From Crocinitomicaceae bacterium (GTDB taxonomy: Bacteria > Bacteroidota > Bacteroidia > Flavobacteriales_D > Crocinitomicaceae), in assembly GCA_017983465.1 (NCBI GenBank), contig JAGOBK010000002.1:310001-374000 (forward strand): 64,000 nt of DNA, read 5' to 3'. A program made the translations under genes and the position numbers. The notes beneath the pieces are model-generated. The model did not search any database, was not told the origin of the DNA, and was given only the letters and a program-made list of their open reading frames with translations. This document shows positions 3,684-29,664 of this stretch, piece by piece. Position 1 is the first letter of the stretch; every line of letters begins with the position of its first letter.

Positions 3684-5084
3684 ATGGATTTTTTGATTAA
3701 AGCAGCACAGTTATTTTTGTCACTAGCGATTTTAGTGACTTTACACGAATTCGGTCATTTTATACCTGCAAGACTATTTAAAACACGTATCGAAAAGTTT
3801 TACTTGTTTTTTAATCCATTCTTCTCTGTTTTTAGAAGAAAAAAAGTAAATGGAGTAACGAAAACAGCTTGGTTTACAAAGGATTCCCCAAAGGAATGGA
3901 AAGAAGATCCAGACTCTACTGAATGGGGATTTGGCTGGCTTCCACTGGGTGGTTATGTGAAAATTGCCGGGATGATTGATGAGTCCATGGACACAGAACA
4001 ACTAAAGCAACCTGCGCAGGAATGGGAGTTCCGTTCTAAAAAAGCATGGCAACGGCTGATCATCATGGTAGGCGGAGTTGTTGTTAACCTAATCCTTGGA
4101 TTCATTATTTACATAGGGGTTGTATTTACTTGGGGTCAAATGGAATTGAAGCCAGTGAATTTGGAACATGGATTAAGTGTTCATCCATACTTAGAAAAAT
4201 ACCACTTGAGTTCAGGAGATAAAGTTTTGACCATTGAAGGAAAAGAAGTCTTGAATTTAGATGAATTGAATAAAGGCATCATGTTCCGTGGTGTACGAAA
4301 TTTGACTGTTCTTCATCCAGATGGAACAAAAGAAGCGATTCGCTTACCCAAAGAAATTGATCGAACATTATTTCAGGTAGGTGCTTTGCCAGCTTTCGGA
4401 TTAAGATCCAGTGCTCATAGTGTTGGCGAAGTTGTGAAAAATTCCCCAGCTAAAGTAGCAGGACTTAAAAAAAACGACGTCATTCTAAGTGTTGGAAATC
4501 AACAAGTGACTTATTTCGATGAACTTTCCAAAGGACTTTATGACGCAAAAGGGAAACGCACCAACCTAACGGTATTGAGAGGAAAAGACACACTTGAACT
4601 AAAAACGAAGGTAAAACAAGATGGAACAATAGGATTTCAAACAAGTGGAAAAATCCTCATTGATTCAAATGCTATTCAAACGAAATACTATGGCATAGGT
4701 CAAAGTATTGCGATTGGAATGAGCTATGGAAAAAATACGCTCTCTGATTATATTTCTCAATTTAAATTTGTCTTTACGAAAAAAGGAGCCACTTCAATCG
4801 GTGGATTTGCATCAATTGGAAATATGTTCCCACCAGTATGGGATTGGGAGTCGTTCTGGTTATCTACAGCGCTATTATCAATCATCTTAGCCTTTATGAA
4901 TATCCTACCAATTCCTGCACTTGATGGTGGACATGTGGTTTTCTTGTTATATGAAATCATCACAGGGAAAGAAGCACCTCAAAAGGTGTTGGAATATGCA
5001 CAAATGGTTGGAATCGTCTTATTATTAACCTTAATGGTTTATGCCAATGGTAATGATCTCATCCGTTGGATAACCTCTTTCTAA
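3684..5084 (+). CDS. rseP: RIP metalloprotease, site-2 protease
   Basis: A 466-residue intramembrane zinc protease of the S2P/RseP family, which cleaves membrane-spanning anti-sigma factors and signal-peptide remnants within the inner membrane. The zinc motif HEFGH is at residues 21-25 in the first membrane helix, and the C-terminal PALDGGH motif supplies the third zinc ligand. One or more PDZ-like domains occupy the middle (about 200-320). The insertion after the first helix, ending in LPLGGYVKIAGM, is usual for Bacteroidota members. Its own promoter precedes it, and the paaZ-like gene follows after 10 bp. Anti-sigma factors elsewhere, perhaps including the one at 26955-27821, are possible substrates (inference). 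Confidence 0.95.
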   Translation: MDFLIKAAQLFLSLAILVTLHEFGHFIPARLFKTRIEKFYLFFNPFFSVFRRKKVNGVTKTAWFTKDSPKEWKEDPDSTEWGFGWLPLGGYVKIAGMIDESMDTEQLKQPAQEWEFRSKKAWQRLIIMVGGVVVNLILGFIIYIGVVFTWGQMELKPVNLEHGLSVHPYLEKYHLSSGDKVLTIEGKEVLNLDELNKGIMFRGVRNLTVLHPDGTKEAIRLPKEIDRTLFQVGALPAFGLRSSAHSVGEVVKNSPAKVAGLKKNDVILSVGNQQVTYFDELSKGLYDAKGKRTNLTVLRGKDTLELKTKVKQDGTIGFQTSGKILIDSNAIQTKYYGIGQSIAIGMSYGKNTLSDYISQFKFVFTKKGATSIGGFASIGNMFPPVWDWESFWLSTALLSIILAFMNILPIPALDGGHVVFLLYEIITGKEAPQKVLEYAQMVGIVLLLTLMVYANGNDLIRWITSF

Positions 5085-10756: not shown

Positions 10757-10840
10757 TACTCGAGGCGGGACTTGAACCCGCACGCCCAAAAGAGCACAGG
10801 ATTTTAAGTCCGGCGTGTCTACCGATTCCACCACTCGAGC
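10757..10840 (-). tRNA. tRNA-Leu (UAA anticodon)
   Basis: An 84-nt class II tRNA with a 7-bp acceptor stem (GCTCGAG with CTCGAGT), a long variable arm, a T-loop TTCAAGT and an anticodon loop CTTAAAA giving anticodon UAA. Discriminator base A, CCA not encoded. The second anticodon-stem pair is C28 opposite U42, a mismatch. It lies 7 bp after tRNA-Gly, apparently in one transcript. Confidence 0.95.
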
Positions 10841-10847
10841 ATAGACG

Positions 10848-10920
<73 letters not shown>

Positions 10921-26248: not shown

Positions 26249-26977
26249 ATGATTATTGGTGCAGATTATGAGAAGATGATTTGGAAATTTGGTGAATTCA
26301 CGTTGATGGAACCAAATACCCTCATTACAGATACCCTTATGTCTGCTATTTGTTTCTACCTGACATATAAACTTTGGAAAGAGCAACATAGAAATCCATT
26401 CGTCAATTGGTTTATGGCTTTTTTCTTTATGTTAGGGATGAGCACATTTGTTGGAGGATTAGGTCATGGCTTTTATTTTTATTGGGGAACGATGGGAAAA
26501 ATCCCTGGTTGGATTACGGCAATTTTAGCTGTTTTTTGCATCGAACAGGCGATGATTTCATTCGTTTACAATAAAACACTTCAAAAAATATATAAAGGAT
26601 TGTCTATACTCAAAATGCTAGTAGTTTTGGGAGTTTTCCTACGCATTTGTTTAAATAGTCAAGTATTTGAAAAGCCAGAATTAGGATTTTTACCAATTGC
26701 AATCAATACCATCCTAGGAACAATATTAAGTGCAGGTATTTTAGGTGTGGTATTTTACAGGAAGCATCAAGCGCCTTTTCATTATTTTTCGTTGGGTGTA
26801 CTTGCAATGTTACCCGCAGCATTCGTTTTTCTGATGAAAATAAATTTACATCCATGGATGGATAAAAATGATGTTTCCCATATCTTATTATCGATAGGAA
26901 ACGTATTCTTTTATGTAGGTATTATAAAAGTTACGCCTGAATTAACATCTAAATTTAATACTGAATTCGAAGGGTAG
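26249..26977 (+). CDS. Multipass membrane protein, unknown function
   Basis: A 242-residue protein with about seven hydrophobic helices. The N-terminal part reads LITDTLMSAICFYLTYKLW, followed by helices containing GLGHGFYFYWG and others. It resembles a Bacteroidota membrane-protein family of unknown function (possibly DUF6962-like, low confidence). A His in the GLGHG turn and another in HPWMDKNDVSHILL could be functional. The start may be ATG 26249 or 26276. Its 3' end overlaps the CHU_C gene tail-to-tail by 23 bp. Confidence 0.7.
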   Translation: MIIGADYEKMIWKFGEFTLMEPNTLITDTLMSAICFYLTYKLWKEQHRNPFVNWFMAFFFMLGMSTFVGGLGHGFYFYWGTMGKIPGWITAILAVFCIEQAMISFVYNKTLQKIYKGLSILKMLVVLGVFLRICLNSQVFEKPELGFLPIAINTILGTILSAGILGVVFYRKHQAPFHYFSLGVLAMLPAAFVFLMKINLHPWMDKNDVSHILLSIGNVFFYVGIIKVTPELTSKFNTEFEG

Positions 26978-27821
26978 AATACTTCGAGATGGTTTTACCA
27001 GAAACTGTTTTCCCCGTTAAGTAGTAGATATAAGTTCCAGCAGGACAAACATCACCATCTACTTTTTTTCCATTCCAATTTTCTTGCGGATTATTGCTCT
27101 TAAAAACGAGTTGATTCTTCATGTCTAGTATGACTAAACTAAAATCAGTGAATTCATAGGAGCTTAAGTCAATGCTAAACTCATCGTTTTTACCATCACC
27201 GTTAGGAGTAAAGATATTCGGCAATACAATGATTTCTTCTTGAACAATAGAAGCTGTCTCTGGTTCATGTGTCACAGGTAGATTTCCGATTGGAAGTTGT
27301 GAAATTGCAGTACTGTTTTGATTGGACACAATCGCTTGGATTGGAAGTGCAGGAATCACTTCAGGATCTTTGTTCGTTAAAGAAATGAAAGGACCGCATG
27401 AGGCACTACCATTGCCACTGTGTAAGGTTCCTGGGCCAAAGCTAGGGCCATTGTTATCTTGAGGGATTTCTGGAATCAAGAATACGTGTTCATAGATTTT
27501 AGCTGGCTTTGATATTGATTTTATTGCAGCTTTTTGATCATTGGATTTGGTTTGAATCGATGTTTTGTCGATTTCTTTAGAGTTCTCCGTTTTTGTGGAT
27601 GATGTTGTTTGATGTGTCAACATCCAGACACCACCAATAACCGTAGCAGCACTTAATCCACCTATAATGGATTTTGTTAAAAGAGATAAACCACTACCTA
27701 CGGCAGTTGTTCCTGAAGTAATGGAAGAAGAAACGGAAGCCCATAATTCTGGACTTACTGGCGACTGATGTTGTGCCAATTTCTCTTGAAACAATTCTTT
27801 TATGAAATCTTTTTCTTCCAT
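26955..27821 (-). CDS. Membrane-anchored CHU_C-domain protein, putative partner of the adjacent ECF sigma factor
   Basis: A 288-residue protein in three parts. The N-terminal 50 residues are cytoplasmic in type and resemble the short segment of Bacteroidota anti-sigma-like proteins (FIKELFQEKL, PELWASVSSSI). One membrane helix follows at about 51-69. After a low-complexity Ser/Thr/Asn region comes a gliding-associated C-terminal (CHU_C, T9SS type B) domain at about 201-288, with FTPNGDGKNDEF, NWNGK and CPAGTYIYYL. There is no cleavable signal peptide. The gene is 1 bp after the sigma factor gene, so co-transcription is nearly certain; anti-sigma function is inference. Confidence 0.8.
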   Translation of the reverse strand: MEEKDFIKELFQEKLAQHQSPVSPELWASVSSSITSGTTAVGSGLSLLTKSIIGGLSAATVIGGVWMLTHQTTSSTKTENSKEIDKTSIQTKSNDQKAAIKSISKPAKIYEHVFLIPEIPQDNNGPSFGPGTLHSGNGSASCGPFISLTNKDPEVIPALPIQAIVSNQNSTAISQLPIGNLPVTHEPETASIVQEEIIVLPNIFTPNGDGKNDEFSIDLSSYEFTDFSLVILDMKNQLVFKSNNPQENWNGKKVDGDVCPAGTYIYYLTGKTVSGKTISKYSTLRIQY

Positions 27822-27822
27822 G

Positions 27823-28347
27823 TTATCTTTTTTCTATACGGTCTTTCAAGTATGCCCTTGCTCTCAAATACTGTGATTTTGAGGTGCTTTCTGTAATTCC
27901 TAGTGTTGTTGCAATTTCTTGATGAGAAAATCCTTCGATGGCAAACATATTAAATACAACGCGGTATCCATCTGGCATTGATTGTACCAATTTCATCAAA
28001 TCATCCGCCATTAATTTCTCTGCAATGAATTCATGTTGTTCAATGCGGTAAGACACCTCTTCCACTTGAATTTCTTTGAGAAGTTTTTTGTCCTTTCGCA
28101 ATTGATCCAAGCAGGTGTTCACCACAATGCGTCGAATCCATCCTTCAAATACTCCTTCGAATTTATATTCGGGAAGTTTTGAATAGACTTTTACCAAAGC
28201 GTCTTGGAGAACATCCTCTGCGCGCATTTTGTCTTTGACATATCGAAGACAAACGGAATACATTTTAGGGGCAAACATTTCAAACAACGCTTTTTGAGCC
28301 TTTGGATTCCCTTCAATACACTGTTTAATTAATGCAATTTCCTCCAT
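27823..28347 (-). CDS. ECF-type RNA polymerase sigma factor
   Basis: A 174-residue group 4 sigma factor. Region 2 (about 10-90) contains the FAPKMYSVCLRYVKD and RAEDVLQDALVKVY segments that bind core polymerase and the -10 element. Region 4 (about 115-170) has the helix-turn-helix HQEIATTLGITESTSKSQ. I start it at ATG 28347 (MEEIALIKQ); a frame to 28398 adds 17 residues without family character. It is followed 1 bp later by the membrane-anchored CHU_C gene and is divergent from a TlpA-domain gene. Confidence 0.93.
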   Translation of the reverse strand: MEEIALIKQCIEGNPKAQKALFEMFAPKMYSVCLRYVKDKMRAEDVLQDALVKVYSKLPEYKFEGVFEGWIRRIVVNTCLDQLRKDKKLLKEIQVEEVSYRIEQHEFIAEKLMADDLMKLVQSMPDGYRVVFNMFAIEGFSHQEIATTLGITESTSKSQYLRARAYLKDRIEKR

Positions 28348-28437
28348 GCTCGATTTGTTTGACTGCGTTTCGTTTAAAAAAGTTGCATGCCGCAGCAAAA
28401 TTCATACGAATTAACGTATTTTCGTTTGCTTAAACAA

Positions 28438-29664
28438 ATGAATATGAAATCCTTTTTATCTATAATTTTCATGCTGTTGTCTCTTGTTTCTTTTGCAAAG
28501 GTGAATATGAAAACCGGTATGTGGCAAGGCGAATTAGCAATGAATGATCGACTTTCCATCCCTTTCCAATTAAAAGTAGAAAAGCAAGGAAATAAGATCT
28601 TTGTAGTGAATAATCTAGAAGAAATATTGATGATTAGTCACGCTAAAAAGGACAGTACTTATTTACAATTCCCCATTCAAGACGCTGAAGTCATTTTCAA
28701 ATTGGAACAAAATGGTGAGTCAGCACGAGGATATTGGATTAATTACAATAAAAAGGTGCAACAAAAAATTCCCTTGACCTTGACATGGAATGTTATACAA
28801 AGATTCCCTCAAATGCATCCAACCAGACCTGTTCAATCACTTTTCGATGGTACCTGGGAAGTAACTTTCCAACCAGGAACGAAAGATGAGGAGATAGCAA
28901 TTGGTATTTTCAATGCGGGCAAGGACACGGAAATAGCGGGTACTTTTTTAACCGAAACGGGAGATTATCGTTTTTTAGCGGGAAATCGGTCTGGACAAAG
29001 TTTTTCTATGTCCACCTTTAATGGTTCGTGGGCAATGATGTTCGAAGCAGAATTACAATCAGACACCTTAAAAGGAAAATTTTATAGTGGAGTTTCGTAT
29101 GTTTCAGATTGGATAGCGGTTCGTAATCCAGAAGCAAAGTTGAGAAATGAAGCCTCGTTGACTTACGTCGTAAATGACCAAAAAGTCAAGACTTCTGACA
29201 TGGTTCAATTAAATGGAAAATCCTTTTCGCTTAAACCAAACGAAGGGAAGGTTATTGTTTTACAAATCATGGGTACGTGGTGTCCGAATTGTTTGGATGA
29301 GGTTCAATTCATGAATCAATTGCACAAAGGTTATGAGCAATTTGGACTTGAAATCATCGCCTTGGCTTATGAAGTGGGAACAGATGGAAAACAAACGCGT
29401 AAAAAATTAAAGGCGTTCAAGAAAAAAATTGGAATGGAATATGATTTGGTATTGGCTGGAAAGTCTTCGAAAGAGGTGGCTTCTTATCAATTTCCTATGT
29501 TAAATGGCATCATGAGTTTTCCAACGACTGTAATAATTGGTAAAGATGGAAAAGTACTGCATGTTCACACAGGTTACAGTGGTCCGGCAACAGGAAGCGC
29601 CCACAAAGAACTCACTGATAAAATCCAATTGGAAATCGAAATGGCATTGGATATTTTAAAGTAA
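28438..29664 (+). CDS. Secreted protein with C-terminal TlpA-like thioredoxin domain
   Basis: A 408-residue periplasmic protein. A signal peptide (FMLLSLVSFAK) is followed by a beta-rich region of about 250 residues without a family I recognise, then a TlpA/ResA-like thioredoxin domain with the active-site WCPNC (Cys282, Cys285) and a later cis-Pro segment FPTTVIIG. Such proteins reduce disulfides in the periplasm, for example in cytochrome c maturation. The start is ATG 28438 or 28444. The gene is divergent from the sigma factor gene and ends at a bidirectional terminator shared with mreB. Confidence 0.85.
   Translation: MNMKSFLSIIFMLLSLVSFAKVNMKTGMWQGELAMNDRLSIPFQLKVEKQGNKIFVVNNLEEILMISHAKKDSTYLQFPIQDAEVIFKLEQNGESARGYWINYNKKVQQKIPLTLTWNVIQRFPQMHPTRPVQSLFDGTWEVTFQPGTKDEEIAIGIFNAGKDTEIAGTFLTETGDYRFLAGNRSGQSFSMSTFNGSWAMMFEAELQSDTLKGKFYSGVSYVSDWIAVRNPEAKLRNEASLTYVVNDQKVKTSDMVQLNGKSFSLKPNEGKVIVLQIMGTWCPNCLDEVQFMNQLHKGYEQFGLEIIALAYEVGTDGKQTRKKLKAFKKKIGMEYDLVLAGKSSKEVASYQFPMLNGIMSFPTTVIIGKDGKVLHVHTGYSGPATGSAHKELTDKIQLEIEMALDILK

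Follow-up and report, generated by a model that had tools for sequence, protein, structure and literature searches.

Why does a protein that ends in a T9SS sorting domain lie directly behind an ECF sigma factor and carry a membrane helix of its own? The question touches on a wider one, namely how most Bacteroidota match T9SS cargo output to secretion capacity. The gene pair lies on the minus strand of a stretch of 64,000 nucleotides (the window) from a Crocinitomicaceae bacterium with a genome of 2.56 Mb and a completeness of 99.97%. The first gene (27823..28347, minus strand) encodes 174 aa from an ATG start. Its product was assigned to the ECF sigma factors, as region 2 and region 4 were the only regions found, in this order: Sigma70_r2 at residues 21-87 (E=1e-15) and Sigma70_r4_2 at residues 116-166 (E=1e-14), both above the Pfam cut-off. 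The second gene (26955..27821, minus strand) follows after 1 bp and encodes a membrane-tethered, anti-sigma-like protein of 288 aa with a T9SS type-B sorting domain. The ORF check and Pfam showed that the coordinates and the 1-bp spacing given in the preliminary description were correct. A longer ORF of the sigma gene, which starts with a TTG at 28398, overlaps the promoter, and the ATG is the likely start.

The sorting domain occupies the very C-terminus of the 288-aa protein (residues 200-288; 26958..27224, minus strand). It was matched as CHU_C by PF13585 (residues 200-276 of 288, E=8e-17, 61.6 bits against a cut-off of 27) and as a T9SS type-B C-terminal domain (CTD) by TIGR04131 (37.2 bits against a cut-off of 35). 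Together with the hydropathy profile, these matches bore out the CHU_C domain and the membrane helix at residues 51-69 that had been described earlier. The protein ranked 8th among the 34 CHU_C matches in the genome, and the domain is therefore not degenerate. AF2 predicted a beta-sandwich with pLDDT mostly >90. SprA, the T9SS translocon, is present in the genome. The Foldseek matches of the domain were mainly generic Ig-like folds, PorZ of the T9SS among them, and a sequence search of solved structures gave no match. The generic folds would suit an explanation in which the Ig-like module senses a periplasmic or surface ligand without contact to the T9SS, and in which the cargo genes described below form an adhesin regulon; the domain nevertheless keeps the sequence motifs of cargo as well as the C-terminal position.

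A single membrane helix was placed at residues 51-69 (27615..27671, minus strand), the top 19-residue hydropathy window of the protein, with a score of 1.55 that is only moderate; the same helix scored about 1.5-2.6 in relatives. Between the helix and the sorting domain lies a disordered tether of about 130 residues (70-199; 27225..27614, minus strand), for which the pLDDT of AF2 was mostly about 40-60. With an assumed 0.35 nm per residue, the 130 residues reach about 45 nm, which is enough to span the periplasm. The tether comprises 117-155 residues in most relatives, and up to 247 where a PKD-like domain is added. In the alignment of relatives the head, the helix and the C-terminal domain were conserved, while the tether was variable.

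The head (residues 1-49; 27675..27821, minus strand) is the predicted sigma-binding segment according to the alignment, AF2 and a head profile. It carries the motif IKELFxxKLxxHQxPVxPELWxSVSSSI, with W27 invariant among the relatives, and two helices were predicted by AF2 at residues 6-16 and 24-35. No Pfam anti-sigma model matched the head of the 288-aa protein, and within the same sigma clade the profile of the CTD-type head matched the head segments of barrel-type partners. The head was regarded as anti-sigma in nature because of the conserved gene pairing and of its homology with the heads of these beta-barrel partners, which have the Dma layout discussed below. We infer that it binds the adjacent sigma. 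CHU_C is normally a cargo domain, and the second gene might thus encode a regular cargo of the T9SS, or a surface protein, whose N-terminus is unusual and which shares an operon with the sigma gene by chance. By hydropathy alone, the N-terminus differs from the cleavable signal peptide of cargo, the hydrophobic stretch beginning at residue 51 behind the conserved hydrophilic head. The conservation of 49 residues ahead of the helix, the homologous heads in barrel-type partners and the association with this sigma throughout the phylum make a chance operon highly improbable.

A full-length homologue of the 288-aa protein was found in most of the genus genomes searched. In all retrieved genus loci with complete context the same sigma gene lay immediately upstream, at a spacing of about -22 to +6 bp, and the genus sigma orthologues, 57-97% identical, were each followed by the same partner. 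Other families of the order (L031-L034, L039, L040) showed the same arrangement, as did named genomes (L051-L076, L102, L107, L119), whose orthologue contigs were mostly from Crocinitomicaceae, e.g., Fluviicola and Crocinitomix, with the Fluviicola chungangensis orthologue at L058. No such sigma accompanied the CHU_C proteins with a usual N-terminal signal peptide that were retrieved as a by-product. Nearly all of the best 80 sigma relatives across Bacteroidota had a downstream partner that combined a related head with a helix. The C-terminal end of this partner varied with the lineage: Flavobacteriales have a CTD, Bacteroidales and some other lineages a beta-barrel (with OMP_b-brl_2 matches in the barrel-type partners of Bacteroidales), and Sphingobacteriaceae and Cytophagales a short tail. 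The domain order seen in the window is kept in the genus, in other Crocinitomicaceae and in other Flavobacteriales, and elsewhere the C-terminal end differs. A position that holds barrels or short tails in the same clade accepts various sensors, which again speaks for a ligand sensor. On the sigma tree the CTD type clustered, with five state changes needed and moderate support. SprA was present in 25/25 tested genomes with a CTD-type anti-sigma, compared to 31/37 with another type (p=0.04 against all other types and 0.009 against the barrel type); this co-occurrence, weak and confounded by phylogeny, agrees with a T9SS link.

The closest known architecture is that of the Dma (dual membrane-spanning anti-sigma) family, which is defined by a head, a helix, a disordered tether and a C-terminal barrel (PMC13088901). 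Dma proteins share with the window protein the N-terminal head, the one helix, the long disordered tether, a C-terminal domain aimed at the outer membrane and a cognate ECF sigma next to it. They end, however, in an outer-membrane beta-barrel, whereas the window protein ends in a CHU_C domain and has a predicted regulon of T9SS cargo. The Dma definition also places the cognate sigma in ECF21. Within the clade of the window sigma, the Dma layout was found in the barrel-type partners, with a homologous head. Judged from its sequence, the window protein is a variant with an exchanged outer end rather than a Dma member; the preliminary description had missed this match to the Dma architecture with the C-terminal barrel exchanged. 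This suggests that the Dma scaffold is broader than the barrel family, the outer end being exchangeable while the head, the helix, the sigma and the promoter stay. A literature search found no publication on a CTD-bearing anti-sigma, and the first Dma paper (PNAS 2024) may mention such variants.

Ahead of the sigma gene, 13 nt from its ATG, a conserved ECF-type promoter TGCAACTT-N16-GTC was found (28361..28387, minus strand). The intergenic space of this promoter also holds the start region of a divergent gene (28387-29664) for a TlpA/ResA-like thioredoxin with a signal peptide. Exact or near-exact copies of the promoter were present at the same place in the genus orthologues with upstream sequence, and the form TGCAAC[C/T]T..[G/A]TC preceded the sigma gene across much of the sigma clade. 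The pattern was absent ahead of the other ECF genes of the genome. The sigma gene is therefore likely to be autoregulated through this promoter, although the motif could be common to another sigma. The genome contained four exact copies, compared to two of the reversed-pattern control, and genus-wide the pattern was clearly commoner than the reversed control. One of the four copies precedes the sigma gene, one lies within glyA, and two lie ahead of T9SS type-B cargo genes, namely a gene for a NIDO-CHU_C protein and an operon for a secreted protein of 133 aa and a Reelin/SprB-repeat CHU_C protein.

In 11 genus genomes, 40 promoter copies other than those at the sigma gene were examined, 23 intergenic and 17 coding; two copies of genome G021 were left out of this count. 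A CHU_C gene was the first or second gene behind 14 of the 23 intergenic copies and behind none of the 17 coding ones, and a 15th intergenic copy (L184) was cut by the contig end. With a random expectation of 2% per site, p is about 5e-14 over all 40 sites, a value that is indicative only, as the sites are related by descent, fall into about four target gene families and so are not independent, and come from genomes that were partly chosen after some of the sites had been seen. A cleaner replicate is the set of 12 genomes from other genera, which held 16 copies, nine at the sigma gene and seven elsewhere. A CHU_C gene lies behind three of the seven, and behind a fourth lies an orthologue of one of these genes, truncated by the contig end. 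An operon of a 124-aa secreted protein and a CHU_C protein of 820-970 aa keeps the promoter in both genome sets, with cargo proteins 43% identical. The targets outside type B were type-A CTD proteins, a LuxR-type HTH protein, CreD and small RNAs; the last three do not belong to the cargo, which speaks against a regulon of cargo genes alone. The promoter copy of the LuxR-type (GerE) HTH protein, which is conserved and 214 aa long, lies about 100 bp ahead of its gene in several genus genomes (L187-L190, L204, L237), and the sigma may thus feed a second regulator.

In genomes with barrel or short-tail partners, no CHU_C gene lay behind any of 13 intergenic promoter-like sites, a contrast that is partly trivial, with several of these genomes lacking the T9SS. 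In Bacteroidales with a barrel-type anti-sigma (L324, L325, L318, L321), promoter-like sites precede genes for secreted 214-aa proteins and M6-type peptidases, not CTD cargo. These 214-aa proteins end in GVRF/GYRF and are barrel-like, with no Pfam match. It is as if the regulon and the anti-sigma end matched the export route in these relatives.

The recurrence of the sigma promoter before T9SS cargo genes strengthened the T9SS link that had been proposed for this regulator. The proposed regulator is supported by the sequence at the level of the gene pair, the predicted topology, the intact sorting domain, the promoter and the target genes. We consider it probable, with good confidence, that the two genes form an autoregulated sigma/anti-sigma pair in which a T9SS-linked anti-sigma controls T9SS cargo genes. 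The earlier view of a transmembrane regulator of the adjacent sigma with a T9SS-type domain held for the pair and for each of its segments, which are conserved; the sensing of the secretion system is still a matter of interpretation. That the targets carry the same domain as the proposed sensor speaks against a ligand-sensor arrangement, which we regard as unlikely.

Further elements under the same promoter were putative small-RNA arrays. An RNA model built on their units found copies in eight genus genomes, usually as tandem arrays of 4-6 short units, each consisting of a TGCAACTT-N16-GTC promoter, a stretch of about 60-80 nt and an intrinsic terminator. Located at L191-L196 (e.g., L192:2444-2806 and L193:390-962; genomes G026, G030, G032, G018, G058 and G025) and also in G016 and G051, the arrays adjoin genes for OmpR-type response regulators and contain recurring ACTCTTATC or TTTTAACTC stretches. 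No Rfam family matched the units, which are probably sigma-controlled small RNAs, and the RNA model found no copies in the window's own genome.

The arrays recall the small RNAs of sigmaE, and with them an envelope-stress explanation has to be weighed. The sorting domain would then be a T9SS-related sensor, and a failure of export, with an accumulation of CTD proteins left behind in the periplasm, would free the sigma, much as DegS/RseP are triggered by misfolded OMP C-termini in the sigmaE pathway. The parts would be the same as in the pair proposed above, and RseP is present. Its gene was confirmed near position 3684 as previously placed (3684-5084; TIGR00054, 195 bits against a cut-off of 147.6); this is a housekeeping gene, however, and lies 23 kb from the sigma pair. 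RseP would be a generic candidate for the releasing protease. The predicted targets are mostly cargo genes, not chaperones or T9SS parts, and further cargo synthesis would be counter-productive while export is blocked. We consider the stress explanation, the main rival of the proposed direction of signalling, improbable.

For the autoregulated pair controlling cargo genes, the following mechanism is proposed. The anti-sigma head would hold the sigma at the inner membrane, and the protein would cross this membrane once, its tether of about 130 residues reaching through the periplasm to the sorting domain. This domain would act as a mock cargo on a tether, docking on PorV/SprA of the T9SS machinery. 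Engagement of the mock cargo by a free translocon would make the head release the sigma, by pulling or by proteolysis, and the released sigma would transcribe a group of T9SS cargo genes as well as the operon it belongs to. Real cargo filling the translocon would displace the mock cargo and leave the sigma held. Full export of a membrane-anchored protein would require its cleavage, which speaks against this mechanism. That the sorting domain is physically engaged by the T9SS has, in our estimate, an even chance. The same balance between acceptance and doubt applies to a mock-cargo switch in which a Dma-like anti-sigma with a cargo-type sorting domain couples the T9SS state to cargo transcription. 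The signalling direction, from a free translocon to a released sigma, is rather doubtful. Only tentatively do we suggest the most general form, in which translocon availability directly gates the transcription of T9SS cargo genes as a T9SS counterpart of the FlgM logic, and in which one anti-sigma scaffold of Bacteroidota has its C-terminal export module exchanged to match the monitored route, a beta-barrel for the barrel-assembly route and a CTD for the T9SS. The proposed sensor and its targets share one sorting domain, which makes the circuit simple and testable.

Several known systems share parts of this logic. In FlgM-sigma28 (PMC3861889), an anti-sigma with an export signal likewise makes the transcription of late substrates depend on the state of a secretion apparatus; FlgM, however, is soluble and exported whole by type III export, and has no homology with the window protein. 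RseA of the RseA-sigmaE system (PMC3861889) is also an anti-sigma that crosses the membrane once and has a sigma-binding head in the cytoplasm, but it carries no sorting domain, and the release by DegS/RseP that is known there is only possible in the window pair. The T9SS regulators known so far work through PorXY-SigP. PorA of Porphyromonas gingivalis, a surface CTD protein with a signal peptide, acts upstream of PorXY-SigP (PMC7712824), and in the proposed pair, too, a T9SS-CTD protein would act upstream of a T9SS-linked ECF sigma. PorA acts via a two-component system on T9SS component genes, whereas in the window the membrane anti-sigma itself bears the CTD, and cargo genes are the predicted targets. 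In the SM6 promoter regulon of Flavobacterium psychrophilum (PMC9723704), ECF-type promoters are likewise tied to T9SS genes, and an ECF/anti-sigma pair is present along with a putative regulatory RNA; its targets are T9SS components, in contrast to the cargo predicted for the window pair.

Other sigma loci were also observed in the genome. At L135 (contig C3, near 92727), a second sigma is accompanied by a single-helix protein of 417 aa, whose CHU_C match is weak (14.8 bits, below the cut-off), and no recognisable promoter copy was found at this locus. The ECF sigma genes at L141 and L142 (contigs C1 and C2) are followed by genes for single-helix proteins of 423-424 aa with barrel-like C-termini, and are possibly true Dma-type pairs in the same genome. 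At L136 (contig C12, near 126472), an ECF sigma gene lies about 3.4 kb after a SprA_N match, without a same-strand partner gene, and is a possible counterpart of SigP. Elsewhere in the window, two neighbouring tRNA genes were found on the minus strand at 10757-10920 (Rfam RF00005).
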